A stretch of DNA of 64,000 bases from Gemmatimonadaceae bacterium (GTDB lineage Bacteria > Gemmatimonadota > Gemmatimonadetes > Gemmatimonadales > Gemmatimonadaceae). A program made the position numbers and the translations under genes. This document shows positions 18,046 through 48,611 of this stretch, in pieces. The notes under the pieces were generated by a model. That model saw only the letters and a program-made list of their open reading frames with translations, had not been told where the DNA came from and did no database searches. The stretch is taken from NCBI GenBank assembly GCA_016742275.1, contig JACVCD010000003.1:186001-250000 (forward strand), given 5' to 3'. The stretch's first letter is position 1. The number at the start of each line of letters is the position of its first letter.

Positions 18046-19299
18046 CTACTCGTAGCGAAGCGCTTCCACCGGATCGAGACGAGCCGCGCGACTGGCCGGA
18101 AGCATTCCAAAAAGAATACCGGTGATCGCACTGGCTCCGAGCGCTGCCACCACGGCAAGCGGCGGGATGCTGGCCTGGATGGGTGTGAAGTTCCGGATAA
18201 GCAGGGCGCCCAGCCATCCCACAAACAGGCCAATGGCGCCGCCGATACCGGTCAGCGTGGCGGCCTCCACCAGGAACTGCCAGAGGATCGTGGCACGCGT
18301 GGCGCCAAGCGCCTTTCGCACGCCGATTTCACGTGTGCGCTCGGTAACCGAGATCATCATGATCGCAATAACGCCAACGCCGCCCACGATGAGGCCGACG
18401 CCCGACAGTGCGATCATGACCAGGAAGAACATGCCGAAGATGCTGTTGTACGTCTCGAGCAGCTTGTCCTGCGTGATGATGGCAAAGCTGGACTCTTCTG
18501 ACGGACGTGTGCCACGGAGACCGCGCATCGCGGCCGTGACATCGTCGATGGCGACATCACGCGACACACCCTCGCGCGGCTTCACGGCCAGGCCGTTGTT
18601 GCTGCGACGGGCACCGATGTAGCGCACGAGTGCATCAATGGGCACTACGGCCTTCGGACGATCACCGCCGGACAGGAAGCTGCTGTTGTCCTTGTAGACG
18701 CCGATGACTTCGAACGGCACGCCATTCAGCGTGATCGACTTGCCGATTGGATCGGACTCACCAAACAGGCGCTCCGCCATTGTGGTGGTGACCACAGCAA
18801 CACGCGCTCCCGTGCGTGCTTCGGCGGCCGTGAATGCACGGCCCGGATACACTTCCGGTGCACCGATCGTGGTCCACTCGGCGGAATAGCCTTCGACACC
18901 AGCCGACGGCAGTTCCACGTCGCGATACTTGACCTTCGCACCCCAGTCGATGCGCTCGCCAACGGCTTCGACGTTGCTCAGGCGACGCAGCGCTTCGACT
19001 TCGTTGCCACGGATGGGCGGATTACGCAGCCAGGCGCAGGCACCTTCGCTGCCGTCGCAGTTCTCGAAGCTGATCGGATAGCGCGTCACGAAGAATGTCG
19101 TGGGCCCCGTGCTGGCGAAGTCGTTGGCCACCGACTGATTGATGCCGTGTACCGCCGCCGAAATCGCGACGACGACGAACACGCCGACCGCGATACCAAG
19201 AATGGTGAGACCGGCACGCACCTTGTTGGCGCGTACGGAATCGATGGCGATGCGCACACCTTCGGAGACCGCTGACAGGCGGGTCGTAAAGGCCGACAT
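18046..19299 (-). CDS. MacB/FtsX-type ABC transporter permease, type A (first A copy)
   Basis: A 417-residue permease: N-terminal segment at about 25-45, periplasmic domain, and three C-terminal segments with the coupling region 'ERTREIGVRKALGATRATI'. It ends in 'ARLDPVEALRYE', nearly the same terminus as the permease at 15483-16724. The N-terminus 'IDSVRANKVRAGLTILGIAVGV' also matches that copy. Its periplasmic part contains a short Cys pair (in 'ENCDGSEGACAW') not seen in the other copies, possibly a disulfide. It follows its B-type partner by 3 bp, so the two are probably made in equal amounts as a heterodimer. Confidence 0.9.
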   Translation of the reverse strand: MSAFTTRLSAVSEGVRIAIDSVRANKVRAGLTILGIAVGVFVVVAISAAVHGINQSVANDFASTGPTTFFVTRYPISFENCDGSEGACAWLRNPPIRGNEVEALRRLSNVEAVGERIDWGAKVKYRDVELPSAGVEGYSAEWTTIGAPEVYPGRAFTAAEARTGARVAVVTTTMAERLFGESDPIGKSITLNGVPFEVIGVYKDNSSFLSGGDRPKAVVPIDALVRYIGARRSNNGLAVKPREGVSRDVAIDDVTAAMRGLRGTRPSEESSFAIITQDKLLETYNSIFGMFFLVMIALSGVGLIVGGVGVIAIMMISVTERTREIGVRKALGATRATILWQFLVEAATLTGIGGAIGLFVGWLGALLIRNFTPIQASIPPLAVVAALGASAITGILFGMLPASRAARLDPVEALRYE

Positions 19300-19302
19300 G
19301 AA

Positions 19303-20550
19303 CTACTCCTGCCGCAGGGCAGCAATGGGATCGAGACGCGATGCACGGCTCGCCGGATACACTCCGGAGATCACGCCCACACCGGCGCCAAGCGCCACAC
19401 CAACAAAAATGGACCACGGCGCCACACTGGCTGGCAGCGGCGACACGATGGCGATGAACTGCGCGAGACCGATGCCAAGCGCCACGCCGATGGCTGAGCC
19501 CACCGTGCCGAGCGTCGAAGCTTCGATCAGAAACTGCAGCAGGATGTCGCGCCGCTTGGCACCAAGCGCCTTGCGGATGCCGATCTCACGGGTGCGTTCG
19601 GCAACAGCCACGAGCATGATGTTCATGATCACGATGGCACCCACGACGAGGCCGATGGCGGGCAGGGCCACACCGGCAAGCACCAGATACTTCTTGATCT
19701 TGTTCCAGAACTCGAGCGCGGAATCGGCCGTCTGCAACGCGAAGTTGTCCTTCTGCGCCGGACGCAGCTTGCGCTGCGCACGCATGGCCGCACGCACCGT
19801 TTCCATGTTCTCTTGCATCGCCATCACATTGGGCGACTGAATCACGACTGCATCGACGATGTTGGGGCGCGAATTGAGCAACCGACGGGCAGGGGAGCGG
19901 AATGACGTGACAAGAAAGTTGTCGAACGACATGCCGAACGCCTTGCCCTGCGATTCTGCCAGTCCAACGACACGATACGGCACGCCACCCATCTTGATTT
20001 CACGGCCGATGGGATCGAGGCCGGGGAACAGGCGCTCCGCCGCATCAGGGCCGATCACCACGACCTTTTCACCGCGCGCCAGTTCCTGTTCGGACAGCGT
20101 GCGACCGTCGGTGACACCCAGCTTCTTCACGTCGAAGTAGTCGCCATCCACGGCCGTGACCTGCACCGTGCGCGGCTTGGTGCTCGCCGCCGACGAGACA
20201 CTCACCTGCGCATCGCTGTAGATGTACCACTTGGTATCGTCCGGAAGACCGCGGGTGGCGGGCTCCACATCGGTGACTTCGAGACGCGGACGACGACGAT
20301 ACTCCTCCCACGTCGCCTGATCCACATCGCCGATGTTGATGTTGGGCCGGTGCCGAAGTTCGAACGTATTCACGGCGATCAGCTTGCCGATCAGATCCTC
20401 TTCCATGTAGCGCCCCATTCCTTCGACGATGGAGACGACGGAAATGAGGAACATCACGCCGATGCAGACACCCAGCAGGGTGAACGCACTCTTCAGCTTT
20501 TGCGTCCGGATGGTGCTCAGGGCCAAACGGATGGCATCAAAAAACGGCAC
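19303..20550 (-). CDS. MacB/FtsX-type ABC transporter permease, type B (first B copy)
   Basis: A 415-residue permease with a GTG start and the standard MacB permease topology: one N-terminal segment, a periplasmic MacB_PCD domain and three C-terminal segments with 'ERTREIGIRKALGAKRRDI'. The N-terminal 'FFDAIRLALSTIRTQKLKSAFTLLGV' groups it with the permease at 16728-17969. It is the first permease after the ATPase gene (42-bp gap) and is followed after 3 bp by its A-type partner. Confidence 0.9.
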   Translation of the reverse strand: MPFFDAIRLALSTIRTQKLKSAFTLLGVCIGVMFLISVVSIVEGMGRYMEEDLIGKLIAVNTFELRHRPNINIGDVDQATWEEYRRRPRLEVTDVEPATRGLPDDTKWYIYSDAQVSVSSAASTKPRTVQVTAVDGDYFDVKKLGVTDGRTLSEQELARGEKVVVIGPDAAERLFPGLDPIGREIKMGGVPYRVVGLAESQGKAFGMSFDNFLVTSFRSPARRLLNSRPNIVDAVVIQSPNVMAMQENMETVRAAMRAQRKLRPAQKDNFALQTADSALEFWNKIKKYLVLAGVALPAIGLVVGAIVIMNIMLVAVAERTREIGIRKALGAKRRDILLQFLIEASTLGTVGSAIGVALGIGLAQFIAIVSPLPASVAPWSIFVGVALGAGVGVISGVYPASRASRLDPIAALRQE

Positions 20551-20592
20551 GGGGCCTCGCGCAGTTGACGGTAGACGCTTTACGGCTGACGC

Positions 20593-21402
20593 TCAGTGTC
20601 CGCCGCCGTGAGTCAGACCCACGCGCTCGATGAACTGGCTGCGAGTCTCATCACTGGCGATCACACCGTCGCGCAGTACAACGACACGACGCGCGTGCGC
20701 CGCGATATCCGGTTCGTGCGTAACCATCACCACCGTCTGTCCCTGCTGCGCCAAACCTTCGAACACGCGCATGATTTCCTCGGACGTCTGTGAGTCGAGG
20801 TTACCCGTGGGTTCGTCAGCAAGCAGGATGGATGGTGAGTTCACCAGCGCACGCGCGATCGCAACACGCTGACGCTGACCACCCGACAACTCGTTCGGAC
20901 GGTGATGCACACGCTGACCCAGCTGCACCTTCTCCAGCGCTTCCATCGCGCGCTTCTTGCGCTCGTCGGCCGAGATGCCGGCATACACCAGCGGCAACTC
21001 GACATTCTGCAAAGCCGTCGCACGGGGAAGCAGGTTGAACGTCTGGAAGACGAAACCGATTTCCTTGTTGCGCACGCGGGCCAGCTGATCATCCGACATC
21101 TCGCTCACGAGCATGCCATTCAGCCAGTACTCGCCCTCGTTCGGCGTGTCGAGGCAGCCGATGAGATTCATCAGCGTCGACTTGCCTGAACCGGACGGGC
21201 CCATGATGGCCACGTATTCGTTGCGACGAATGCCAAGGTCCACACCACGCAGGGCGCGCACGATTTCACCGCCCATGTCGTACTGGCGCTTGAGTTCGCG
21301 CGTCACGATGACCCAGCTCTTGTCCGGGGCCGAGCCGGGCGCGCTGGTGATAGCGCGCCGCTCAGCGGTGGTGCTCAGGCCGATCGCGTCGGCCGCGCTC
21401 AC
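20593..21402 (-). CDS. ABC transporter ATP-binding protein, MacB/LolD type
   Basis: A 269-residue ATPase. The Walker [10 protein letters not shown], the ABC signature [15 protein letters not shown] and the Walker B '[13 protein letters not shown]' are all intact, followed by the switch His in '[13 protein letters not shown]'. '[20 protein letters not shown]' and '[20 protein letters not shown]' are typical of the MacB/LolD subfamily. An unusual N-terminal extension of about 30 residues precedes the domain. The GTG start overlaps the adaptor gene stop (GTGA). It is the only ATPase in the operon and must energise all four permeases. Confidence 0.94.
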
Positions 21403-22697
21403 GACTTGCTCCCGTTGGCCGGCTTGGCGGCGGTACCGGTTGCCGGCGGTGGCGTGTTGACCTTGATCAGCGCGCCATCCTTGAGCTCACGGATCGCCTG
21501 GTACGTGCCGGCCACGATCTTTTCGCCGGCCTTGAGTCCGGTGAGCACTTCGAAGTGGCGCTCACCCGCGATACCAACCTTGACCGGGCGGAACGTAACT
21601 TTGTTGTCGGCGCCCACAATGAACACACCTTCCACGTCGCGCTTGCCGATTTCCTTGGCCGGAGTGCTACCAACCGTCACCGCGGAGTCGCCAGACTTGA
21701 GCGCCTCGTTCTCACGCACAGTGAGGGCGATGATCGGGATGCTCAACACCTGCTTGCGGGTGGCCGTGACGATCTTGGCCGTGGCCGAGAAGTCCGGACG
21801 CGTTTCGCCCGGCGGGTTCATGAGCTGTACACGCACTTCGTAGTCGATGGCCTGGTCACCCGTGGACGTGGCACCGGCACGCACCACCGAGCTGTTCGAG
21901 ATCTCGACCACCTGTCCGATAAACGTGGTATCGGGGAAGGCATCGATCTGAATGACGGCCGAGTCACCCACGTTGATGCGCGCGACATCGGTTTCGTCGA
22001 CCTTCACCTTGGTTTCCAGTACGCTCATATCGGCAATCGTGAGCAGCGTCGCCGCGTCCTTGTTGAGCGTACCCATGATGGCCGTTTCGCCTTCTTCCAC
22101 GTTGAGGCGCGTCACCTTGCCACTCATCGGCGCCACGATCGTGGTGCGATTGAGTGCCTGACGCGCGTCGCGGACTGAAGCCTGCGCCTGCTCCACGGAA
22201 AAGCCCGCGGCTTCGGCCAGCGCTTCGTTCACTTCCATCTGCGTCTTGAGCTGCTCGAGCTGTTCATCGGAGACGAGCGCCGGCTGCGTCTTCTTGATCT
22301 GCTGCGAACGCTCGTAGTTGCGCTGAGCCTGAATGAGATTGGCCTTGGCCTGCGCCGCCTGCGCGCGCGCTGATGCCAGGGCCGCTTCGGAACGCTGCAA
22401 CGCGGCCGTCGGCTGCTCGGGATCGATCTGGAGCAGGAACTGGCCCTTCTTCACGATGTCGCCTTCCTTCACCGACAGGCGCACGATCTTACCGGTCACG
22501 TCGGCCGACACATCGACCTTGGTGCGCGGCTGGATCTGTCCGCTGGCCGTCACCGAGGCCACGAGATCGCGGGCCTCGACCGCTTCGGCGCGCACTTCCA
22601 CCGGCTTGGTGGAATTCTTCTTGGCAGCCACCACGGCAAGCGCTGCGACGCCAACCAGCACGACGCCGGCGATACCGAACTTTACAGTCTTCGTCAT
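21399..22697 (-). CDS. Periplasmic adaptor (membrane-fusion) protein, MacA/HlyD family
   Basis: A 432-residue adaptor that links the inner-membrane ABC transporter to the outer-membrane channel. An N-terminal membrane anchor (residues about 7-25) is followed by a barrel-sandwich half ('[16 protein letters not shown]...[11 protein letters not shown]'), a long alpha-helical hairpin (about 100-185, rich in Ala/Gln heptads), the second half-motif ('[20 protein letters not shown]') and a beta-barrel domain. The C-terminal tail is Pro/Ala/Lys rich. It sits between the TolC-like gene (12 bp upstream) and the ATPase gene (4-bp overlap), the usual order of a tripartite macrolide/peptide exporter. Confidence 0.93.
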
Positions 22698-22709
22698 GAC
22701 GGATCTCTG

Positions 22710-24212
22710 TTAACGGAGGGGGCGACCCACGGCGTTTTCCAACGCCGCAAAGGCCCGTTGCACATCGTACACGGCGGTAATGCGATCAGTCTCAGCGCTT
22801 TCGTAGTCACCACGGGCCTGCACAAGGTCCACGATGCTGATGGCGCCCACACGATACCGCTCCTGCGCCAGCGAAAGAGCCGTGCGCGCAGTGCGCACGT
22901 TCTGCTCCTGCAGTGTCACGGTCTGCTGCGCGGTACGCAGCTGGAGGAACGCGGCGGTGACATCAGCCGAGAGACGCAACTCCTGCTGGCGCGTGTTGTT
23001 CTCGGCATTGCGCTGCTGCACCTTGGCCTGCTCGAGCGCCTGCTCGCGGCGGAAGCCGTTGAAGATAGGCAGCGAGAACGTCGCGCTGATGTTGTACGGG
23101 TTACGCGTGAAGTCGAACGGATACTTGCCCTGCTGGTCGCGGATGGCCTGTTCATTCTCCGGACCGAAAGTGAGGAGCGAGCAACCGGCCAGATCATTGG
23201 CCAGGCCGAGCCGCGCGCGTACCTCTTCGGAGCGAACACAGTTGGCCTGCTGGTTGAGCATGCCCGCCTGACCCTGCGCAATGAGCAGGCCGGTGTTGGT
23301 GAACCGGTTCGTAAACGCCGACAAACCGGCCGAAAGGTTCAGCGATGGGTAGTAGGCGCTGCGCGCGGAGGCTACACCACGATCGGCCGACTCTTCACGC
23401 GCCTTGAGCGCACCGAGCGACGGATTGCTGCGACGCGCATTGCCGATCACGTCAGCGAGCTGGAGTTCCGGCGTGGCTGGCAGATTCGGATTGAGCCGCG
23501 TGTTGGGGATGGGCTCCACGCCGATCTGCTGGAACAACCGCACGATTTCAATCTCTGCCTGGTTGCGGGCATTGATGGATGCGACGCGCTGGCGACCATC
23601 GGCCACCTCGGCGCGCTGCACATCGAGCTGCGTGCCAGAACCCACCTGCAAGCGCGCCCGCGCCAACTCCAGCTGTGCCGTCGTGGTGGCCAGCAACGTG
23701 TCCTGCAGCGACGCACGCGCCTGCTGCTGCAGCGCCGTGAGGTACTGCGTGATGACGGCGTTACGGAGCGTCTGCTCGGCGGCGACGATGTCGGCTTCGG
23801 TGGCCTCCTGATTGGCCTTGGCTGCGCGACGGTCGTTCAAGGTGGCCAGCGACAGGTTCATGTTCGCACTGGCATTGAAATCGGTCGACAACTGATCGTT
23901 GGTCGAACCGAAGGCCTGACCCTGAAGGAACGTCTGGCGACCTTCACGGTAGCCGCCACCGAGGCTTGTGTTGACATTCGGCAGGAATGCGCCGGTCGCA
24001 GCACGCACGTTGGCCGCAGCAGTGCGCCGCGCGTTGATAGACGTCTGCAGAGACGGGTTGCTGCGACGAGCCAGTGTCAGGGCGTCTTCGAGTGTCAGCA
24101 CGCCGCCAGAGGCGGGGGCACTACCCTGAGCCGTGGCAACCGCCGGAACGGCACTTCCAACCAACACCCCAAGCGCAAGCGCAAGCACGTGTGATCGCAC
24201 GGGAATTTTCAT
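22710..24212 (-). CDS. TolC-family outer membrane efflux protein
   Basis: A 500-residue outer-membrane channel protein with a signal peptide (hydrophobic residues about 8-22, ending near 'AVATAQG'). It has two repeats of the OEP domain: 'LTLEDALTLARRSNPSL' opens the first, and the second contains 'TVTLQEQNVRTARTALSLAQERYRVGAISIVDLVQARGDY'. The long Gln/Ala-rich helices form the periplasmic tunnel. I chose the ATG at 24212 because the residues after it form a good signal peptide; the open frame runs further upstream to 24431 but through intergenic hairpins. It is the first gene of the efflux operon. Confidence 0.92.
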   Translation of the reverse strand: MKIPVRSHVLALALGVLVGSAVPAVATAQGSAPASGGVLTLEDALTLARRSNPSLQTSINARRTAAANVRAATGAFLPNVNTSLGGGYREGRQTFLQGQAFGSTNDQLSTDFNASANMNLSLATLNDRRAAKANQEATEADIVAAEQTLRNAVITQYLTALQQQARASLQDTLLATTTAQLELARARLQVGSGTQLDVQRAEVADGRQRVASINARNQAEIEIVRLFQQIGVEPIPNTRLNPNLPATPELQLADVIGNARRSNPSLGALKAREESADRGVASARSAYYPSLNLSAGLSAFTNRFTNTGLLIAQGQAGMLNQQANCVRSEEVRARLGLANDLAGCSLLTFGPENEQAIRDQQGKYPFDFTRNPYNISATFSLPIFNGFRREQALEQAKVQQRNAENNTRQQELRLSADVTAAFLQLRTAQQTVTLQEQNVRTARTALSLAQERYRVGAISIVDLVQARGDYESAETDRITAVYDVQRAFAALENAVGRPLR

Positions 24213-24327
24213 GGCGTTGTTACGAGTGGGAGAATTCAAGGACAGGGGGGCATACGCTGAGGTCGTCCGGATGGTTTCAGCCTCAGCAATCAAAAAGCTC
24301 CCGCAGGGGGAGGAGCAACGGAAACGG
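24213..24327. promoter_or_regulatory. Leader/promoter region of the efflux operon, with an inverted repeat
   Basis: The 115-bp gap between the hypothetical gene upstream and the TolC-type gene holds an inverted repeat, GCTGAGG (24256-24262) and CCTCAGC (24281-24287), besides a terminator. The repeat could form an mRNA leader hairpin or an operator for the efflux operon. No convincing -35/-10 pair is evident by eye. Confidence 0.35.
24292..24312 (-). terminator. Intrinsic terminator after the secreted hypothetical gene
   Basis: On the minus strand CTCCC and GGGAG pair around a 5-base loop and are followed by CTTTTTG. It sits 16-36 bp after the stop of the upstream gene and before the TolC-type gene, so the efflux operon likely starts its own transcript. 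Confidence 0.65.
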
Positions 24328-25074
24328 CTATCGGGGAACGTCGTCCCGGAGGGCGTCGAGCCCACGGGACGCAATAAGGACGCGAAGGAGCTGCCCCTCA
24401 GGTTCAGCCCATACCGTTCGGACCTCACCACTGCTGGTCACAATGCGCCACCGCGAGGCCAGGCGGCGGGCGCCGGCAATGACTATCGGATCGTTCTGGG
24501 CTTCCAGCACGACTCGGACAGCGCCCTGCGAATTGGCAACCGGGGTCAGGGAGGGAAGCGTCACACCCTCGCCTGGCGGCAAACGCCGACCCCAGAGCAG
24601 CAGGGCATGCTGCACAAAACCGTCTTCCTCCACCACAACCGCCGCCGGTCGAAGCAGATATTCGCGAGCCGACTCACCGGTGACCGAACGGGCCAGCGTG
24701 GCAAATCGTCCACGGACCCGCTGACCGCCGAGGCGGAGCGTCACTTCGGTCCCACGGCGCTCTTCGACTGAGTAGCGAACCGGGGTCCCTGCGGAGTCGG
24801 CTTCGAGGCGCATGGCCGTCCGGCGATCACCGACGGCCGATTCAGATCGCAACTCCAGCGTGGCACCGTCCACCACGGGAATGCGCTGCACGGAGAATTG
24901 TTCGCGGCCCACGCGCTGTCCATTCAGCAGCACCGTGAAACTGCCTTCGTCGAGGCGGGTCGGCTGGACCTGACGACTGTCAGCCCCCCCGATACCTCGC
25001 ATCGGCAGCATCAGCAGCACAGCGATGGAAGAGCCGCTCAACACGCGGCGGAAGGAAGCGCATGAGCACCACAT
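24328..25074 (-). CDS. Secreted hypothetical protein
   Basis: A 248-residue protein I do not assign to a named family. The N-terminus has a basic stretch followed by a hydrophobic region ('SSIAVLLMLPM', residues about 15-25), so it is probably exported. The rest looks all-beta with alternating charged and hydrophobic residues ('FTVLLNGQRVGREQFSV', 'VRYSVEERRGTEVTLRL'), resembling DUF-type proteins with lipoprotein-carrier-like strands. The ATG at 25074 is preferred over an in-frame TTG at 25092. It is divergent from the large histidine kinase with about 80 bp between them, and followed by a terminator, so it is a single-gene unit. Confidence 0.7.
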   Translation of the reverse strand: MWCSCASFRRVLSGSSIAVLLMLPMRGIGGADSRQVQPTRLDEGSFTVLLNGQRVGREQFSVQRIPVVDGATLELRSESAVGDRRTAMRLEADSAGTPVRYSVEERRGTEVTLRLGGQRVRGRFATLARSVTGESAREYLLRPAAVVVEEDGFVQHALLLWGRRLPPGEGVTLPSLTPVANSQGAVRVVLEAQNDPIVIAGARRLASRWRIVTSSGEVRTVWAEPEGQLLRVLIASRGLDALRDDVPR

Positions 25075-25155
25075 TCCGCGAAAGATAATCAACCGTACGC
25101 CACGAACCGACCTCGACCCGTCGCCTCCTGGAACCCCGTGGGGTATTGTGGGGCG

Positions 25156-28100
25156 ATGACTTCGCGCTTCCGCTATCTCAAGGCATACGACCGGTGGCCA
25201 CTGGGCTGGATTCTCAGCGCGGTGGCGGCCATGATGGCCTTGGCGTGGTGGCAGCAGGCCCCCAGTTGGCCACGGTTGCTGGTGACCTTCCTGGCGACCG
25301 GAGCGGCCGCGTGGTTGCTGCCCACCATCCGGCGGGCTGGGGCATTTGGCACGGCCATGGTGGTGTCGCTCTCGGCCGGTCTTTTGCTGGCTGGCACGGA
25401 GACGGCGACACTGACTTCGTTGCGTCGCAATTGGACGGCCTGGTCGGCCACCGAGCGCGAGGCGCGCGCCCAGCGCGTGGCGGCCAGTCTCACCGAAGTC
25501 GCAGAGGCTCTGCGCAATACGGCCGCTTCACGTGCCGCCGATTCACAGTTTGTGGCCAGGGCCTCGCGTGGTGAGCCTCTGGTGGTCGCGCCGCCGCTGC
25601 AGCGCAGTGTCGAGTCGGCTCTGTTGGTCTATCGACGCGATACGCTGGTGGCGCGCGCCGGTCAGGTCCACACACGGATCTCCCCGCTGGGTGCGCCAGG
25701 TGTACGCCTTGAGGAGGGCGCGTTTCATACGTCGCTGGTGGCTCGTGCACGTTCAGCGGATGGTCGTGTGGAGGTCGTGGCGGCCGCATTGGTCTCTTCT
25801 GCGCCGCCGGCTGACCGTTTTGCGCGGGCACTGCTGCAATCGCTGCCGGGCAATATCGATGTCGCACACACACGCATCGAATCGCCAGACAGCGCCGTTG
25901 TAGACCCTGGGGCAACGGTGGTCGTCGTGCCTGACGGCCCCAATCGTCTGGCCCGTGTACGCGCCACGACATACACCGAAGGCGAGACACGATTGGCGCT
26001 CGAGCAGCGAGCGCGCACGCGTACGTCGGTGGCATTGGCGTTCGCCGTCGCGTGTTTTCTGATCGTAGCGTGGCGTAAACCGGCGCGCACTATCGAGCGC
26101 GCGCTTGGCGCGGCCGGTGTGCTGGGTGTCGTAGCGTTGGCGCCGCTGACCGGTTTGTCGAATGTGTCCACCGTGTTTGATCCGTCGAGCTACTTCGCTC
26201 CAATGGGTGGACCACTCACGTCCACCATTGCGGCGCTGCTGATCACGGCGGTGTTGCTGCTGGCGGTGTTGCTGTTTGCACTTCGAACCGTGCAGCAGAA
26301 GCAATCACGTCTGCTTGCGACGTCGGTGGTGCTGGTGCTTGCCGCCGGCGGACCATTTCTGCTGCGCGATCTTGCGCGCGGCATCTCGTTGCCAGCCACC
26401 GGGGCCGGGTTTGAATTGTGGATTGCCTGGCAGCTGGCGCTGGCGCTGATTGGCGCGGCGGTCTTGTTGGCGGGTGCCGCCGCGGGTCAGACAGCGCTCG
26501 GTACGAGTCGCGGATTGCCGGCCATCGTTGCACCGCTGGTAGCGGCTGTTGCTGCTTTGTTGGCCGGTCCATTGTGGGATGCGCCCGGTGCGTGGCCGCC
26601 CTGGTATCCCGCGCTTTGGGTCGTGGCCATTGGCTCACTGGCGCTCACGCGCAAAGGGCTCGCTCAGGTGGTCGCAGCTGCAGTCGTGGCCGGTGCCGGC
26701 GCCACCACACTCACCTGGGGCGCCACCGCGCGCGCGCGCATGGCACTGGTGGAGTACGACCTCCAGCGCAACGCGGTCGTCGATGACAATGCGTTACGTC
26801 TGCTTGAGCGGTTCGCGTCGGAGTTGCGCGACGAGACGCGTCCAGCGCCGCGCAGCGATGTCATGCTGCGTCGCTATGCCTCGAGTGAATTGGCGCGTGC
26901 AGGCTATCCGGCACGACTGGCGCGCTGGTCACCCTCGAATCTGGATAGCGCGGTTTCCGTACTCGAGTTGGCGCCGGTGGTGGACACCATCGGTGCGCAG
27001 GCGTACCTGGCATTGCTCGCACGAAACAGCGGTCAGGTCGAGCTGCGCTCCGTCGACGATGGTGTGACGACGCTGCTACTGGCCGCTGTACCGGCGCCCG
27101 ATGGCATTGTCACCACGATTGCGGTACCGCCGCGCACACGTCTTCTGCCAGCCGACCCGTTTGCGGCGTTTACCGGTGTAACGGGTGCGCGTGGAAATGC
27201 TGCACCGTATCGACTCACAATGGCGGCCACGGAACCCGAGGACACCACACGAGCGGCGCTCGCGTGGAGACGGCGTGGTGATGCGCTCTTTGGTGACGGC
27301 GTGCTGCGAGAGCGCGATGTCGGTCAGCGTGTCCAGGTTGAGGTGGACATTGGTGGGTTGGATCGTCTCGTGCCCCGCGGGTCCCTGCTCATCATGCTCG
27401 ATGTGCTCGTCGTGCTTGGCCTCTGGTCGGCGACGGCATTGGCAGATGGTGCGCTTGGGCGACTGGTGCGCGTGCGCCGTGCGCGCTGGTCGCGCTCGTA
27501 CCGCGTGCGATTGAGCGGTGCACTGCTCGCATTTTTCACACTGCCTGCCGTGATGTTCGGCGTATGGGCCTGGTATCGGTTGCAGGATGATGACCGAGCC
27601 GCGCGCGAATTGCTGGTGCGCGAAACGCTGCGTGTGGCATCGGCCGAACAAGAGCAACGTCTGCTGGGCACGACTCCTTCCAGCACTGGTGCGCCGCTGT
27701 TCTTCTATCGCCACGGGATGTTGACCATTGCCAGCGATCCTTTGCTTGATGCCCTGGCTCCACTCGGCCGTCTGCTGCCCGGAACGTTGGCGGCAGATGA
27801 ACTCGGTGGCGACGCGGTGTTCACGACTCAGCGTGTCCCAATTGCCGATGCGACGACGCTGGTGGGTTTCCGGCATCTCGAGCAGGTAGCCGGCAATCTC
27901 GATCTCGATGGCGTGCTGGCCACACCCGCGCGCGGCGATGAGTTTGCGCTCGACGCACGTCGCGAGGACCTCGGCATCCTGCTGCTGTTCGCTACGATGA
28001 TCGGCGCCTTGGCCGCCGTGTGGTCAAGCGGTGTGGCGGCACGGTCGTTGGCTCGACCCGTTGGTGCGTTGCGCGAAGCCGCGCTGGCCATTGCGGCAGG

Positions 28101-29328
28101 TCGTGAGGCGCCATCACTGGGCAATGCGCCGGCTACGGAGTTTGCACCGGTGTATCGGGCCTTTGGTCGCATGTCGGCCGATCTGGCCACCAGCCGCGCC
28201 GCGCTCGAGGCGGCGCAGCGACGCACAGCTGCCGTTCTACAGAACGTCGCGTCTGGTGTGGTGGCTTTTCACTATACGGGCGACATTCTGCTGGCCAATC
28301 CGAGAGCCGGTGCGTTGCTCGGACGCTCGGTGCAGTTGCCTGGGGCATCGCTCGCCTCACTGGCGCCAACACTGGCACCGCTCGTGGATCGATGCCGCAG
28401 GTTCTTCGTTGGAACTGCAGATGACGAGGCCTTCGACATCCATGTGCAGGGTCGCCAGCTGCAAGCCCGACTCACACGATTGCCGTCTGGCGCCGTGCTC
28501 ACCATCGACGACATCACGGCACTGGCGTCGGCACAGCGCGTGCTCGCGTGGGGTGAGATGGCGCGTCAGGTGGCCCATGAGATCAAGAACCCGCTGACAC
28601 CCATTCGACTCGGTGTACAGCACCTCCGTCGCGCGTGGCGTGATGGTCGCGGCGACTTCAGCCAGATTCTCGATACCAATGTCAGTCGTGTACTCGAGGA
28701 GATCGATCATCTCGATGAAATCGCACGCGCTTTCAGTCGATACGGCACCGCTCCATCGGAACGTGAGCCGGCCGTGACAATTGATGTGGCGCGCGTGGTG
28801 CGTGATGTCATCGCACTCGAACGTCTTGGTGACAGCGACGATCAGTCCATGCCGGTGCAGTGGGAGTTCGAGCATGTCACCACTGGGGAAGCCGATGCAG
28901 AAGCCGAAGTGTGGGCACTGGGGCAGCGGGACGAGCTCCGCGAAGTGATGCTCAACCTGCTCGAGAACGCCCGACTTGCGGCCGCTCGCACGGTGCGGGT
29001 GCGGTTGCAGGTAGATGGCGCGCAGATCCAGCTCGCGGTGGTGGACGATGGGTCGGGTATTGCGCCGGATGTGCTGCCCCATGTGTTCGAACCCCACTTC
29101 TCGACACGCACGAGCGGCAGTGGATTGGGGCTGGCCATCAGTCGTCGATTGATCGAAGGCTGGGGCGGTACAATCAGCGTGACCAGCAGTCCGGGGGAAG
29201 GGACCACCGTGCATATCCGGCTGGTCAGCGCGGATCGGAACGCCGACATGGATGCGGGCATGGACACGTTCCAGGAGCGGGACGAAGTACGCCCGTTGCA
29301 TCAGGCGGGACCCGCGAGCGGAGATTAG
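25156..29328 (+). CDS. Very large membrane sensor histidine kinase, NtrY-like
   Basis: A 1390-residue sensor kinase. The N-terminal 1000 residues contain several hydrophobic clusters (about 20-85, 290-310, 325-530, 740-760, 795-820 and 930-965) separated by extracytoplasmic stretches, unusually large for the family. A HAMP region (about 955-1010), a PAS-like segment (about 1020-1115) and the dimerisation H-box 'MARQVAHEIKNPLTPIRLG' (H1141) follow. The ATPase domain has 'LLENARLAA' (N box), 'VVDDGSGI' (G1) and 'GSGLGLAISRRLIEGWGG' (G2). The H-box is of the NtrY type. I prefer the ATG at 25156 to the GTG six codons upstream. No response regulator is adjacent; an NtrX-like regulator lies 18 kb away. 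The next gene starts 10 bp downstream. Confidence 0.9.
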   Translation: MTSRFRYLKAYDRWPLGWILSAVAAMMALAWWQQAPSWPRLLVTFLATGAAAWLLPTIRRAGAFGTAMVVSLSAGLLLAGTETATLTSLRRNWTAWSATEREARAQRVAASLTEVAEALRNTAASRAADSQFVARASRGEPLVVAPPLQRSVESALLVYRRDTLVARAGQVHTRISPLGAPGVRLEEGAFHTSLVARARSADGRVEVVAAALVSSAPPADRFARALLQSLPGNIDVAHTRIESPDSAVVDPGATVVVVPDGPNRLARVRATTYTEGETRLALEQRARTRTSVALAFAVACFLIVAWRKPARTIERALGAAGVLGVVALAPLTGLSNVSTVFDPSSYFAPMGGPLTSTIAALLITAVLLLAVLLFALRTVQQKQSRLLATSVVLVLAAGGPFLLRDLARGISLPATGAGFELWIAWQLALALIGAAVLLAGAAAGQTALGTSRGLPAIVAPLVAAVAALLAGPLWDAPGAWPPWYPALWVVAIGSLALTRKGLAQVVAAAVVAGAGATTLTWGATARARMALVEYDLQRNAVVDDNALRLLERFASELRDETRPAPRSDVMLRRYASSELARAGYPARLARWSPSNLDSAVSVLELAPVVDTIGAQAYLALLARNSGQVELRSVDDGVTTLLLAAVPAPDGIVTTIAVPPRTRLLPADPFAAFTGVTGARGNAAPYRLTMAATEPEDTTRAALAWRRRGDALFGDGVLRERDVGQRVQVEVDIGGLDRLVPRGSLLIMLDVLVVLGLWSATALADGALGRLVRVRRARWSRSYRVRLSGALLAFFTLPAVMFGVWAWYRLQDDDRAARELLVRETLRVASAEQEQRLLGTTPSSTGAPLFFYRHGMLTIASDPLLDALAPLGRLLPGTLAADELGGDAVFTTQRVPIADATTLVGFRHLEQVAGNLDLDGVLATPARGDEFALDARREDLGILLLFATMIGALAAVWSSGVAARSLARPVGALREAALAIAAGREAPSLGNAPATEFAPVYRAFGRMSADLATSRAALEAAQRRTAAVLQNVASGVVAFHYTGDILLANPRAGALLGRSVQLPGASLASLAPTLAPLVDRCRRFFVGTADDEAFDIHVQGRQLQARLTRLPSGAVLTIDDITALASAQRVLAWGEMARQVAHEIKNPLTPIRLGVQHLRRAWRDGRGDFSQILDTNVSRVLEEIDHLDEIARAFSRYGTAPSEREPAVTIDVARVVRDVIALERLGDSDDQSMPVQWEFEHVTTGEADAEAEVWALGQRDELREVMLNLLENARLAAARTVRVRLQVDGAQIQLAVVDDGSGIAPDVLPHVFEPHFSTRTSGSGLGLAISRRLIEGWGGTISVTSSPGEGTTVHIRLVSADRNADMDAGMDTFQERDEVRPLHQAGPASGD

Positions 29329-29338
29329 ACTTCCGCCT

Positions 29339-31120
29339 ATGTCCGAGCGCTTCTCCCCTGCCGATCAAATGGTCACGACGTCTCCGCCGCCGCATCTGGA
29401 GCCGTGGTCATTACCACCGGGTTGGGCCTGGGGAAGCGACGCCATTCAGCGCGAGCATCGGCACTATCAGGAAGTAATCGATGCGCTGGGGCGCTCTTTG
29501 TCGCTCGTGAGTACGCCCAATCCTGAGCACGATGAGTGGCTCAAGAACGAGGCGCGCGCGCTGGCGCATCGTAACCATCCATCGATTCCCACGACGTATC
29601 ACTACTGGGCGTCGTATGAGCAGAGTCGTCGCGGCCCCGGCTATTTGAGGCGTTGGATCAGCGGCGAAACCGTGTACTCGCGCGTGGCGCGACTCGGTCC
29701 TGATTCCATCCAGTTTGCGTTTCAGGTCCTGCGCGAGGCGGGCAGCACGCTGTCCTACATCCACGATACGGCGGCGGCGCATGGAGCCGTGTCGGCCAGT
29801 ACGGTGTGGCTCACGCCTGGCGGACGATTGTGGTTGTTGGGTTGGGAGTGGGTGTTACCCGCTGATCAGCGGCCAGCCGGCATCATTCCCGATCCTACCT
29901 TCACGCCGTGGGCACCCGAGTGGGCACCGGGTGAGTGGAAGCCGACCGCACTCTCCGATCAGTGGCAGCTCGCGGCCATGCTGTTCATCATGCTCACCGG
30001 TGAGACGCCACCGGAGCGCGATGTACCGCCATTGTCGTTGCTGCGCTCCGACTGTCCGCAGATTCTCGGTCAGGTGCTTGAGCGCGCACTCGCCTACGAT
30101 CCGGCCGATCGATATCCGAGCATTGCCACCATGCTGCGCGAGCTCGATCGGCATGTGTCGGTACGCCCGGTGATGATTGCTCCCGAGGGCGACGAGTTGC
30201 CCAAGTCGCTCGATTCTTCGGAAGCACGTTTGCGTTGGGCCACGGCTGACGACTACGAAATTCTCGCGCCGCTCGGTCAGGGCATGTTTGGTAGTGTGTG
30301 GCGTGCGCGGGATCTGTCGCTCTCGCGCGAAGTGGCCATCAAGGTGCTGCACCCGCATATCGCGAAGGACGACATTGCCGTGGCGCGTTTCCGCCGTGAA
30401 GCGCGGTTGGCCGCCCAACTGGCGCATGCGGCCATCGTGCCGATCTACGACAGCGACAGCCGTGGCGGTGTGGTGTGGTATACGATGGAGCTGGCCGAAG
30501 GCGGCTCGGTGGCGAATCTGGTGTCGCGTGCCGGCCGTCGTCCGTTCGAAGAGATTGCGCCTCAGGTCGATGAAGTGCTCGAGGCGCTGCATGCCGCGCA
30601 CACCAGCGGCATTATCCACCGCGATCTCAAGCCGGAAAACATCCTCATCGATCGCTATCGTCGTTGGCGTATCGGTGACTTTGGTATCGCGTACGCGTTG
30701 GGCGACGAAAAGGCCGGCACATCCGGTACGCCGTCGTTTGCGGCGCCCGAGCAGTTGCTTGGCGAGGCGCAGGGTCCGGCGACGGACTGCTATGCGCTGG
30801 CCAGTATCGTGTACTACGTCCTCACGGGTCATCCGCCATTTGGCGAAGGACCAGCCGAGCAGATTCTCGCGCGGCAGATGTCGGACACGCTTGGTGATCA
30901 GTTGCAGGCCGATGGGTTTGACGACGCCCTCGGGGCGTGGTTGGCGCGTGGTCTCGCACAGCGCGTTGAAGATCGCTTCGACGACGCGCAGGAAATGCGC
31001 GCGGCGTGGCGTGAAGTGGTTCGTGTCACGCGTCGCGGAGAAGAATCGCGTCCGTGGTGGCGTCGTCTGTTTGAAGGATTGCAGGACGAACCCACGGCTG
31101 AAGCAACGCCCGACTGGTAG
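29339..31120 (+). CDS. Tandem pseudokinase-Ser/Thr kinase fusion protein
   Basis: A 593-residue protein with two protein-kinase-fold domains. The C-terminal domain (about 310-570) is a complete Hanks-type kinase: glycine loop GQGMFGSV, catalytic K335 in VAIKVL, HRDLKPEN with D429 and DFG with D447, then 'GTPSFAAPEQ'. The N-terminal domain (about 30-275) keeps the kinase layout, including 'AHRNHPSIPTTYHYW' and a C-lobe ending 'DPADRYPSIATMLREL', but the HRD region reads 'AHGAVSASTVW' and the DFG region 'LLGWEW', so it lacks catalytic Asp residues and is presumably a pseudokinase. There is no membrane segment. It lies 10 bp after the NtrY-like kinase and may be cotranscribed with it. Confidence 0.88.
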   Translation: MSERFSPADQMVTTSPPPHLEPWSLPPGWAWGSDAIQREHRHYQEVIDALGRSLSLVSTPNPEHDEWLKNEARALAHRNHPSIPTTYHYWASYEQSRRGPGYLRRWISGETVYSRVARLGPDSIQFAFQVLREAGSTLSYIHDTAAAHGAVSASTVWLTPGGRLWLLGWEWVLPADQRPAGIIPDPTFTPWAPEWAPGEWKPTALSDQWQLAAMLFIMLTGETPPERDVPPLSLLRSDCPQILGQVLERALAYDPADRYPSIATMLRELDRHVSVRPVMIAPEGDELPKSLDSSEARLRWATADDYEILAPLGQGMFGSVWRARDLSLSREVAIKVLHPHIAKDDIAVARFRREARLAAQLAHAAIVPIYDSDSRGGVVWYTMELAEGGSVANLVSRAGRRPFEEIAPQVDEVLEALHAAHTSGIIHRDLKPENILIDRYRRWRIGDFGIAYALGDEKAGTSGTPSFAAPEQLLGEAQGPATDCYALASIVYYVLTGHPPFGEGPAEQILARQMSDTLGDQLQADGFDDALGAWLARGLAQRVEDRFDDAQEMRAAWREVVRVTRRGEESRPWWRRLFEGLQDEPTAEATPDW

Positions 31121-31139
31121 GCTCCAGCCGGGCGTTTTT
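31105..31139 (+). terminator. Intrinsic terminator of the histidine kinase/Ser-Thr kinase unit
   Basis: AACGCCCG (31105-31112) pairs with CGGGCGTT (31129-31136), with inner CTGG/CCAG pairing, and a T run follows immediately. The left arm and loop include the stop codon of the kinase gene. It faces the end of the convergent diguanylate cyclase gene. Confidence 0.85.
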
Positions 31140-31168: not shown

Positions 31169-32542
31169 TCAGGCTGCGTGCGTTGGTGGCAGCGGGAGTG
31201 CGGTGGCCGGCGTGGGCGCGGTAAGCGCCGAAGGAACGGCCGCCGGATTGGGGGACGTTGGCAGCAGACCGCGCGCGGTGGCCATGGCGTTGGCAACCGC
31301 CATCACCTCGGCCGGCACCGACGTTGGGAGACGGCCACCATTGCGGCGTGCCGTACGAGCGGCGCGTGCAGCCTTTGGAGTCATCGCAGCTGCCACCATC
31401 GCTTCAGGCATCACTTCCGTCATCGGTTCAACCACGGCATCGATTGCCGTATGCACACGAGTGAGCTGCCGGCGACGCTTGCGCGCATAGAGCAACTGGT
31501 CGGCGCGGGCGAGCAATTCCACGATCGATGCGGGATCGGTCGGACGAACTCGCGTGTGACCAATGGTCAGGGCGATCGTGGCCGGAAATTCTCCACTGGC
31601 GTTGAGGAGCGAGAGACGCTCCTCGATACGCTTCTGGATGATGCGCGCGCCGACACCGTCGGCATCGAGCGCGAGAACGGTGAACTCGTCACCACCAAGT
31701 CGTGCCACTACATCGCAGTCACGCAGGGTAGACTGCAGCAGACGCGCGACTGCCTGCAGGGCACGATCACCGACACCATGGCCGTGCAGGTCGTTCAGCT
31801 GCTTGAAGCCATCCATGTCGGCGTACAGCACCACCGCATCCTTCCCCTGACGACGCGCCACACGCAGCTGCTGTTCGGCGAGTGCCATGAAGCCGCGGCG
31901 ATTGTAGAGACGCGTGAGGTCGTCGGTGAGCGATGCCTTGCGGAGACGCAGTTCCTCGCGCTTGCGGCGTGTGATGTCACGTACCGTTACGGCAACACCA
32001 TCGGTGGTCGGAATGACCTGATGCATCATCCAGCCAGCCGTGAAACGACGGCGATCGACGCGAATGTCTTCGATGAGCGGCGAATGCAGGGTGACCACAC
32101 CAGCGTAACGCGCAAACAATGCCTCACCGTTTTGTGCGGCGAGGTCACGGCGCAGTCGACGTCCCACGAGTGCAGCGGGAGTGCTTCGGCAGAGGGCGGC
32201 GCCGGTGGCGTTGGCGTCGGTGATCTCGAGGTCGTCAATGGCACCGTCTTCGCCGCGCACGGCGCGAAGCAAAAAGATGCCGTCTACGTTGTGCTGCATG
32301 GCGTCTTCGAGACGCTGCATGCGCTCTCGCAGCTGGACATCGTCCTGCATGCGGCGGAGCAGCTCGCGATGCAGCAATCGCCAGCCCACGATCGCACCCG
32401 CAAGGGCGAGCGCGGACAGCAGCGGCGCCGTCTGGCCCAAAGAGGGCAGGCGGACGACACCCTGCGTGAGGGCGATGACGATCGCGGAGGTGAGAGCTAT
32501 CGCCCCCCAGAAGGAGGCGCGTAGAACAAAACGGTCGAGCAT
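31169..32542 (-). CDS. Membrane diguanylate cyclase with PAS-like domain and Ala/Pro-rich tail
   Basis: A 457-residue GGDEF protein that would make cyclic di-GMP from two GTP. Two hydrophobic segments (about 10-28 and 36-55) anchor it. A short coiled-coil (about 60-85) and a PAS-like domain (about 85-195, ending in 'VTVRDITRRK') follow, then the GGDEF domain with an intact GGDEF at residues 283-287. An RxxD inhibitory site (RDCD) sits exactly five residues before it, so product inhibition is expected. The last 100 residues are low-complexity Ala/Pro/Thr sequence of unknown purpose. The leader upstream is rich in hairpins and no clear ribosome-binding site precedes the ATG. Confidence 0.92.
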   Translation of the reverse strand: MLDRFVLRASFWGAIALTSAIVIALTQGVVRLPSLGQTAPLLSALALAGAIVGWRLLHRELLRRMQDDVQLRERMQRLEDAMQHNVDGIFLLRAVRGEDGAIDDLEITDANATGAALCRSTPAALVGRRLRRDLAAQNGEALFARYAGVVTLHSPLIEDIRVDRRRFTAGWMMHQVIPTTDGVAVTVRDITRRKREELRLRKASLTDDLTRLYNRRGFMALAEQQLRVARRQGKDAVVLYADMDGFKQLNDLHGHGVGDRALQAVARLLQSTLRDCDVVARLGGDEFTVLALDADGVGARIIQKRIEERLSLLNASGEFPATIALTIGHTRVRPTDPASIVELLARADQLLYARKRRRQLTRVHTAIDAVVEPMTEVMPEAMVAAAMTPKAARAARTARRNGGRLPTSVPAEVMAVANAMATARGLLPTSPNPAAVPSALTAPTPATALPLPPTHAA

Positions 32543-47240: not shown

Positions 47241-48611
47241 ATGACCCGACGCATTCTCGTCATCGACGACGAACCCGGTATCCGACAAGCCCTCGGGCAG
47301 TTGCTCGAGTACGAAGGCTTTGAAGTCCGGACGGCCAGCAATGGCACCGAGGGCATTTCGCTGTATGACAGCTTTCGCCCGCAACTGGTCTTCCTCGATG
47401 TGAAGATGGCTGGCCTCGATGGTCTCGAGGTGCTCAAACGTCTGCGGCAGGCTGATGCCAACGCCACGGTCGTCATGATCAGCGGACACGCCACCATTCA
47501 GACGGCGGTCGAAGCCACGCAGCTCGGTGCGTACGACATTCTCGAAAAGCCGCTCGACACCGACCGCGTATTGGTGCTGCTGCGCAATGCATTCGAGAAT
47601 CGCGAACTCACCGAGGAGAATGCACGTCTTCGCGAAACGATCGAATCGCGCTATGAAATCGTGGGGCGCAGCTTCGGCATTCGCGCTTTGCTCGATCGTG
47701 TGGAAAAGGTTGCGGCGACACCGGCCCGCGTGCTTATCACCGGAGAGAACGGCACCGGCAAGGAACTTGTGGCGCGGGCCATTCATCGTGGATCGCCACG
47801 CGCCAAGAAAACCTTCATCGAAGTCAATTGCGCGGCCATTCCGAGTGAGCTGATCGAGAGTGAGCTCTTCGGGCACATGAAGGGATCGTTCACTGGTGCC
47901 ATCAGCGATCGCGCCGGCAAGTTCGAACAGGCCGACGGCGGCACGCTGTTCCTCGACGAAATCGGCGACATGTCGTCGAGCGCGCAGGCCAAGGTCTTGC
48001 GTGTGCTGCAGGACGGTGTGGTCACACGCATTGGCGGCAGCAAGCCCATTCAGGTGGATGTCCGCGTGCTGGCGGCCACCAACAAGAATCTCGAGGAAGA
48101 AATCGCCGCTGGGCGTTTCCGTGAGGATCTGTACTATCGTCTGAATGTGGTGCCCATCACCGTGCCCGCGCTGCGTGAACGGCGCGAGGATATCGCGTTG
48201 CTCGTCACCCATTTCCTGCAGCAATTGGCTGCCCGTGACGGACTGCCGGCACGCCGCATCACTGACGAGGCGCTGCAGCGCCTCTCCGAGCTCGAATGGC
48301 AGGGCAACGTACGTGAACTCCGCAACACGGTGGAGCGGCTGGTCATTCTGGCGAGCGGCGCCACCATTGTAGCCGGAGACGTGGAACGGCTGGTTGGTCG
48401 GCGAACCGCTGAGCCGGCGGGCTTGGGGAGTTTGCTCGATATCGCCACATTCGAAGAGTTCAAACAGGCTGCCGAACGCGCCTATCTGTTGGCCAAGCTC
48501 CGGGCATTCGACTGGAACGTGTCGGAAACCGCCCGGGTGCTCGACATGCCGCGTTCCAACCTGTACAAGAAGATCGAGCGCTATCAGCTCCAGCGGGAAA
48601 CGGTGGAGTAG
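47241..48611 (+). CDS. Sigma-54-dependent response regulator, NtrX-like
   Basis: A 456-residue three-domain regulator. The receiver domain (1-120) has the acidic pocket D9-D10 and the phosphoacceptor D53. The AAA+ domain (about 140-370) has Walker A GENGTGKE (168-175), the sigma-54 contact loop as GSFTGA, and '[11 protein letters not shown]' (Walker B). The C-terminal Fis-type helix-turn-helix reads '[24 protein letters not shown]'. It would activate sigma-54 promoters when phosphorylated. No sensor kinase is adjacent; the NtrY-like kinase at 25156-29328 is a candidate partner. No rpoN is in the window. Confidence 0.93.

Follow-up and report, generated by a model that had tools for sequence, protein, structure and literature searches.

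Organization of the locus

The locus lies in the window, the whole 64,000-nucleotide stretch of DNA that was analysed, and has the following features.

25138..29328 (+): membrane sensor histidine kinase (HK), ~1390 residues, recognized with Pfam; directly upstream of the tandem gene and co-directional with it
29339..31120 (+): pseudokinase-kinase tandem protein, 593 residues; open reading frame with an ATG start, its Pfam domains being of kinase type only
29396..30154 (+): D1, predicted pseudokinase domain (residues 20-272), from predicted fold and alignment
30155..30244 (+): linker (residues 273-302), from the full-length model and alignment
30245..31036 (+): D2, predicted active-type Ser/Thr kinase domain (residues 303-566), from Pfam and alignment
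31106..31139 (+): intrinsic terminator behind the kinase gene, from RNA folding
47241..48611 (+): NtrX/NtrC-type response regulator, candidate partner of the HK, from sequence; the best PF00158 match of the genome

The stop codon of the HK gene has its last base at 29328, leaving a 10-nt gap to the tandem open reading frame; the ORF coordinates thus bear out an earlier note on this DNA, which had placed a 593-residue frame 10 bp behind the HK. The terminator that the note assigned to both genes is also real, with a stem (ACGCCCG-A-CUGG / CCAG-C-CGGGCGU) followed by UUUU, a folding energy of -23 kcal/mol and a z of -3.1; the stop codon of the kinase gene sits at its loop. Downstream neighbours of the tandem gene vary from species to species. 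The one found here, a PAS-GGDEF diguanylate cyclase gene (31172-32542, - strand), is convergent with the kinase operon and is not a conserved neighbour among the relatives looked at.

Pfam assigns HAMP, HisKA and HATPase_c domains to the HK, with a PAS domain just below the cut-off. The HK is intact, with HEIKNPL at residue 1147 and both N and G boxes present, and it has the HAMP-PAS-HisKA-HATPase architecture and HEIKNPLTPI H box of an NtrY-like kinase. There is no response regulator in the HK operon, and the NtrX/NtrC-type regulator 18 kb away is a candidate partner on the basis of its sequence. Genes for a tripartite efflux system (OEP, HlyD-type, ABC and MacB-type; 18049-24431, - strand) are divergent from the HK gene.

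Two kinase folds in a single protein

The earlier note had read two kinase-fold domains in the tandem protein, the first without its catalytic Asp residues, and had named structure prediction as the way in which this reading could fail. A structure search with the whole protein gave matches of single-kinase length, mostly to D2; because D2 dominated that search, a separate model of D1 was built and used as the query. The D1 model (60 sequences; pLDDT 90.6, pTM 0.88) has a kinase fold, aligning with Mycobacterium tuberculosis PknB with a VIA-align Z of 26.2 and an r.m.s.d. of 2.6 over 244 residues, and a Foldseek search with it matched solved kinases, PknB and PknA being the nearest. Among solved bacterial kinases, the D1 sequence likewise matches PknA and PknB (best match PknA, 4e-10, residues 59-259). 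The reading of two kinase folds therefore stood, both being supported by prediction, D1 also by the PknA match and D2 also by PF00069.

The motif readings of the note were correct as well: HRD is replaced by H148-G149-A150 and DFG by G168-W169-E170 in D1. The β3 strand (GRSLSLVS type) lacks the Lys, whose position falls at S55 or V57 according to how the gaps are placed. A GxGxxG loop was not seen in D1 either. The residues replaced are thus the β3 Lys, the HRD Asp, the catalytic-loop Lys and Asn and the DFG Asp. The structural core is kept, with the αC residue E71, the APE-type E194, the αF residue D207 and the C-lobe residue R258 invariant in all 60 rows of a wider alignment; W67, E71, H148, W169, W171 and V57 are invariant in 63 family sequences. 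An Asp occurs at position 150 in two closely related members of these 63 and at position 168 in one other, and none has the full set. The K/D/D triad is intact in all of 26 other kinase domains taken from the same genome, so the catalytic loss is peculiar to D1 and not a matter of chance. With a predicted kinase fold and a loss of catalytic residues that is conserved across orthologues, D1 is classed from its model and alignment as a pseudokinase domain.

D2 is matched by Pkinase (PF00069, 2.8e-45) over residues 306-514 in the best of two Pfam stretches. It has a GxGxxG loop, K335, E354, an HRDLKPEN loop with D429, K431 and N434, and the DFG residue D447. These six residues are present in all 63 family sequences and invariant in the 60-row alignment, in accord with the note's statement that the second domain keeps K335, D429 and D447. 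The four hallmarks of an active kinase (β3 Lys, HRD Asp, DFG Asp and Gly-rich loop) are invariant in D2 across 60 sequences; judged by its motifs, D2 is an active-type PknB-like Ser/Thr kinase with the full catalytic set. The linker is modelled with low confidence at residues 275-287, followed by a conserved helix (residues 294-302) with an invariant R299. The full-length model reaches a pTM of 0.53 and for this reason leaves the D1-D2 arrangement unfixed.

Two routes of catalytic loss

The catalytic residues of D1 have been replaced differently in different families of the order. In the family of the window, Gemmatimonadaceae, HRD has mostly become HG[A/G/S] and DFG mostly GW[E/Q]. The sister families (14/14 rows) have Arg for the β3 Lys, [VILM]RR for HRD and DLR for DFG. 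Residue 157 is W, Y or F in 43 of 44 family rows, whereas it is M, L, V or I in all 14 sister-family rows. By alignment it corresponds to L173 of PKA, the C-spine residue that lies against adenine.

A comparable case is the MviN pseudokinase, in which aromatic residues fill the pocket, W789 completes the C-spine and the binding of ATP and Mg is deficient (PMC12599244). By analogy, and given the aromatic spine residue and the missing Lys and Gly loop, D1 of the window's family probably cannot bind nucleotide. The sister-family D1 domains may have retained this ability, since the DFG Asp is kept and Arg stands in for Lys.

Distribution, origin and selection

A tandem profile of 585 positions was run against 395 Gemmatimonadota genomes, with positives taken at E < 1e-110. 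The search of other genomes that the note had proposed found the fusion to be widely conserved: 201 of the 395 genomes carry it, every one of them in a single order, Gemmatimonadales, whose members are soil and water bacteria. Of the positives, 127 belong to the window's family (140 genomes) and the other 74 to two sister families; the profile gave no match in 13 family genomes, including all four sampled of one genus. In 34 genomes from other families of the class, all of the matches listed start at profile position 225 at the earliest and cover D2 only. Other phyla were covered by a peptide-pattern scan, which reaches close relatives only. The gene is also present, at 74% and 55% identity, in records titled Candidatus Kuenenia (L053) and Chthoniobacterales (L066); both contigs most probably derive from Gemmatimonadota and were binned into those MAGs by error.

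When placed in a tree together with 50 other kinase domains, the D1 and D2 sequences each form their own clade (support 0.98 and 0.996, respectively), outside which fall the other kinases of the genome. The D1 clade contains one additional tip, L149, which belongs to the tandem locus of a genome from a sister family. This separation into two clades dates the fusion back to the ancestor of the order, with a single origin at or before its base; the tree speaks neither for nor against an origin of D1 and D2 by internal duplication. Between the window and 13 relatives, dN/dS ranges from 0.06 to 0.15 for D1 and from 0.05 to 0.15 for D2, values that are rough because dS approaches or exceeds saturation in the majority of pairs. 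Purifying selection on D1 is plain. On the tree, D1 evolves at ~1.6 times the rate of D2.

PADLOC gave anti-phage matches (PD-T4-6, MAD6 and PglW) that fall on the kinase domains, the MAD6 and PglW scores lying far below the NCBIfam cut-offs. This is probably generic kinase similarity, and the order-wide presence of the tandem argues against a defence role.

Several related loci were noted. A second tandem copy, ~43% identical, occurs in two genomes that belong to the same genus (L123:6634-8481 and L124:6271-8118); it is not beside the HK gene, and in it D1 is likewise dead and D2 live. A further locus, L104:2139-3815 (genome G138), was considered as a tandem and rejected: its product, of 559 residues, has one degraded kinase domain and a C-terminal PEGA domain. 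The HRD Asp is lost from its HGALSSSN catalytic loop, making it a separate candidate pseudokinase. Some genomes of the family have no stop codon between the tandem and a following TonB-dependent receptor; the two make up one open frame of ~1300 residues, and a hydrophobic stretch resembling a signal peptide lies where they meet [L181:50-3946 (+), L182:802-4677 (-) and L183:5878-9756 (+); also genomes G193 and G320]. Such a frame may represent a genuine fusion protein, a polyprotein that is cleaved at the signal sequence or two genes that overlap in frame.

Linkage to the histidine kinase

Linkage was counted at the primary tandem copy in each of 59 family genomes. In 49 the HK gene immediately precedes the tandem gene on the same strand, at gaps mostly between -4 and ~40 nt. 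In seven others the HK and tandem genes lie close together but converge, with an aldehyde dehydrogenase gene between them in all five of the cases read closely; co-transcription is therefore precluded in these seven. The remaining family genomes have the tandem at a contig end (1/59), the two genes on different contigs (1/59) or no HK match (1/59). L120 (genome G053) is a family genome that has kept the tandem and in which the HK sensor region found no match. In the sister-family genomes searched, an HK homologue is present away from the tandem, with efflux-type genes, like those divergent from the HK gene in the window, nearby in those that were read. The operon link claimed in the earlier note thus holds for most of the family and fails in the convergent genomes and the sister families.

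Because the sister families have the HK homologue elsewhere, the linkage is a younger, family-level feature. Its lack of universality, seen in the convergent cases and the sister families, argues that the tandem did not arise within an HK operon, and the same arrangements indicate that HK input is not essential to the core function. The tandem kinase might then operate independently of the HK, with merely a promoter or an old location common to both. A tandem older than the linkage, an HK homologue placed elsewhere in sister families and family genomes with the pair convergent (seven), on another contig (one) or lacking an HK match (one) all speak for independence. Against it stand the adjacency that has been kept in 49 of 59 genomes while the downstream neighbours turn over, and the convergent pairs, which still lie within ~1.7 kb. 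We consider such independence rather unlikely, though a live alternative; within this one family, the linkage to the HK appears to be held by selection.

Proposed mechanism and alternatives

The model that we favour, tentatively and at somewhat less than an even chance, is that D1 is a locked non-catalytic fold that acts by docking. It would be a dedicated pseudokinase domain preceding the PknB-like D2 in one chain, would dock on D2 and/or the cytosolic part of the sensor HK and would set the activity of D2 allosterically. In Gemmatimonadaceae the HK would have been recruited as a co-expressed input or partner of the tandem; a single membrane signal could then be passed to a Ser/Thr kinase as well as to a response regulator. 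We infer both the control of D2 by D1 and a pathway common to HK and kinase. The broader proposal, that a JAK-like module evolved in Gemmatimonadales independently of eukaryotes as an intramolecular pseudokinase switch on a Ser/Thr kinase and was later placed, in Gemmatimonadaceae, under a co-expressed membrane HK driving both two-component and Ser/Thr phosphorylation, is doubtful.

Instead of acting as an allosteric switch, D1 could serve as a docking scaffold or phospho-acceptor: D2 would phosphorylate D1 or the linker, and a partner would be recruited by the phosphorylated product. MviN provides a precedent that also has an aromatic spine residue: PknB phosphorylates the tail of its pseudokinase, which recruits the FHA protein FhaA (PMC12599244). 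The selection on D1 would suit such a role too. However, the kinase of MviN is a separate protein, while in the tandem the pseudokinase is without exception fused to its kinase, an arrangement in favour of intramolecular control, and the operon was not seen to hold an FHA-type partner gene. A scaffold or acceptor role is accordingly an alternative to be kept in mind, although on balance an unlikely one beside allosteric control by D1.

It is far less probable that D1 has a non-canonical activity or a nucleotide-sensing role of the SelO or SidJ kind. Some pseudokinases have acquired other transfer reactions (PMC12599244), and the DFG Asp and the Arg for Lys of the sister families would permit nucleotide binding there; D1 of the window's family, however, lacks all three catalytic residues together with the loop Lys and Asn and has an aromatic residue 157. 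That D1 is a decaying duplicate heading for loss, as its faster rate might suggest, was rejected as having almost no likelihood in view of its dN/dS, its occurrence in 201 genomes and structural residues invariant across three families.

Comparison with known systems

The best-known examples of kinases regulated by a fused pseudokinase are eukaryotic, and to our knowledge few bacterial pseudokinases have a known role. The resemblance to JAK suggested in the earlier note extends to the domain layout: as in JH2-JH1, a pseudokinase precedes an active kinase in one chain with a short linker. It goes no further, as Pfam finds neither FERM nor SH2 in the tandem protein, and D2 is not of the tyrosine type of JH1, having a Ser/Thr-type HRDLKPEN loop, PknB as its nearest relative and bacterial PknB ancestry. 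Without FERM, SH2 and a tyrosine-type kinase, the likeness is an analogy, a convergent layout only.

The PknB/PknA family is the nearest to both D1 and D2 in fold and sequence. It differs from the tandem, which has two kinase folds per chain, the first dead, and no recognized PASTA domain; the PASTA-kinase model NF033483 (Stk1/PknB) gives 235 bits against a cut-off of 450, over the kinase region only.

A 2025 review describes seven bacterial pseudokinase families (ActPs1-3, GLW, CP1, DYD and DLHK; PMC12599244), which, like D1, are conserved, catalytically impaired bacterial Ser/Thr kinase domains; another study, as relayed by a review, defined 42 families of bacterial Ser/Thr kinases. The MviN pseudokinase (ActPs3 family, Mycobacterium) shares with D1 three degraded motifs and an aromatic seal of the spine (PMC12599244), but it lies within a transmembrane peptidoglycan-synthesis protein and has a separate kinase, whereas D1 is fused to its own. 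The replacements HGA and GWE also differ from the ActPs3/MviN motifs, and the tandem protein has no match to the MviN-type Pfam domain. The GLW family has GLW in place of HRD, in contrast to D1, in which GWE/Q replaces DFG. The review makes no mention of Gemmatimonadota, of tandems or of fusion to an active kinase (PMC12599244). In agreement with the note, no description of a pseudokinase-kinase module in Gemmatimonadota was found in the literature searched, which left out most subscription papers.

The order-wide bacterial pseudokinase-kinase module is thus real and apparently undescribed. A tandem of single origin in which catalysis was lost by two routes constitutes a natural series, in a compact protein, with which to test what a pseudokinase must keep in order to regulate its partner. 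If the HK link is functional, the module would additionally represent a hard-wired join of two-component and Ser/Thr signalling.
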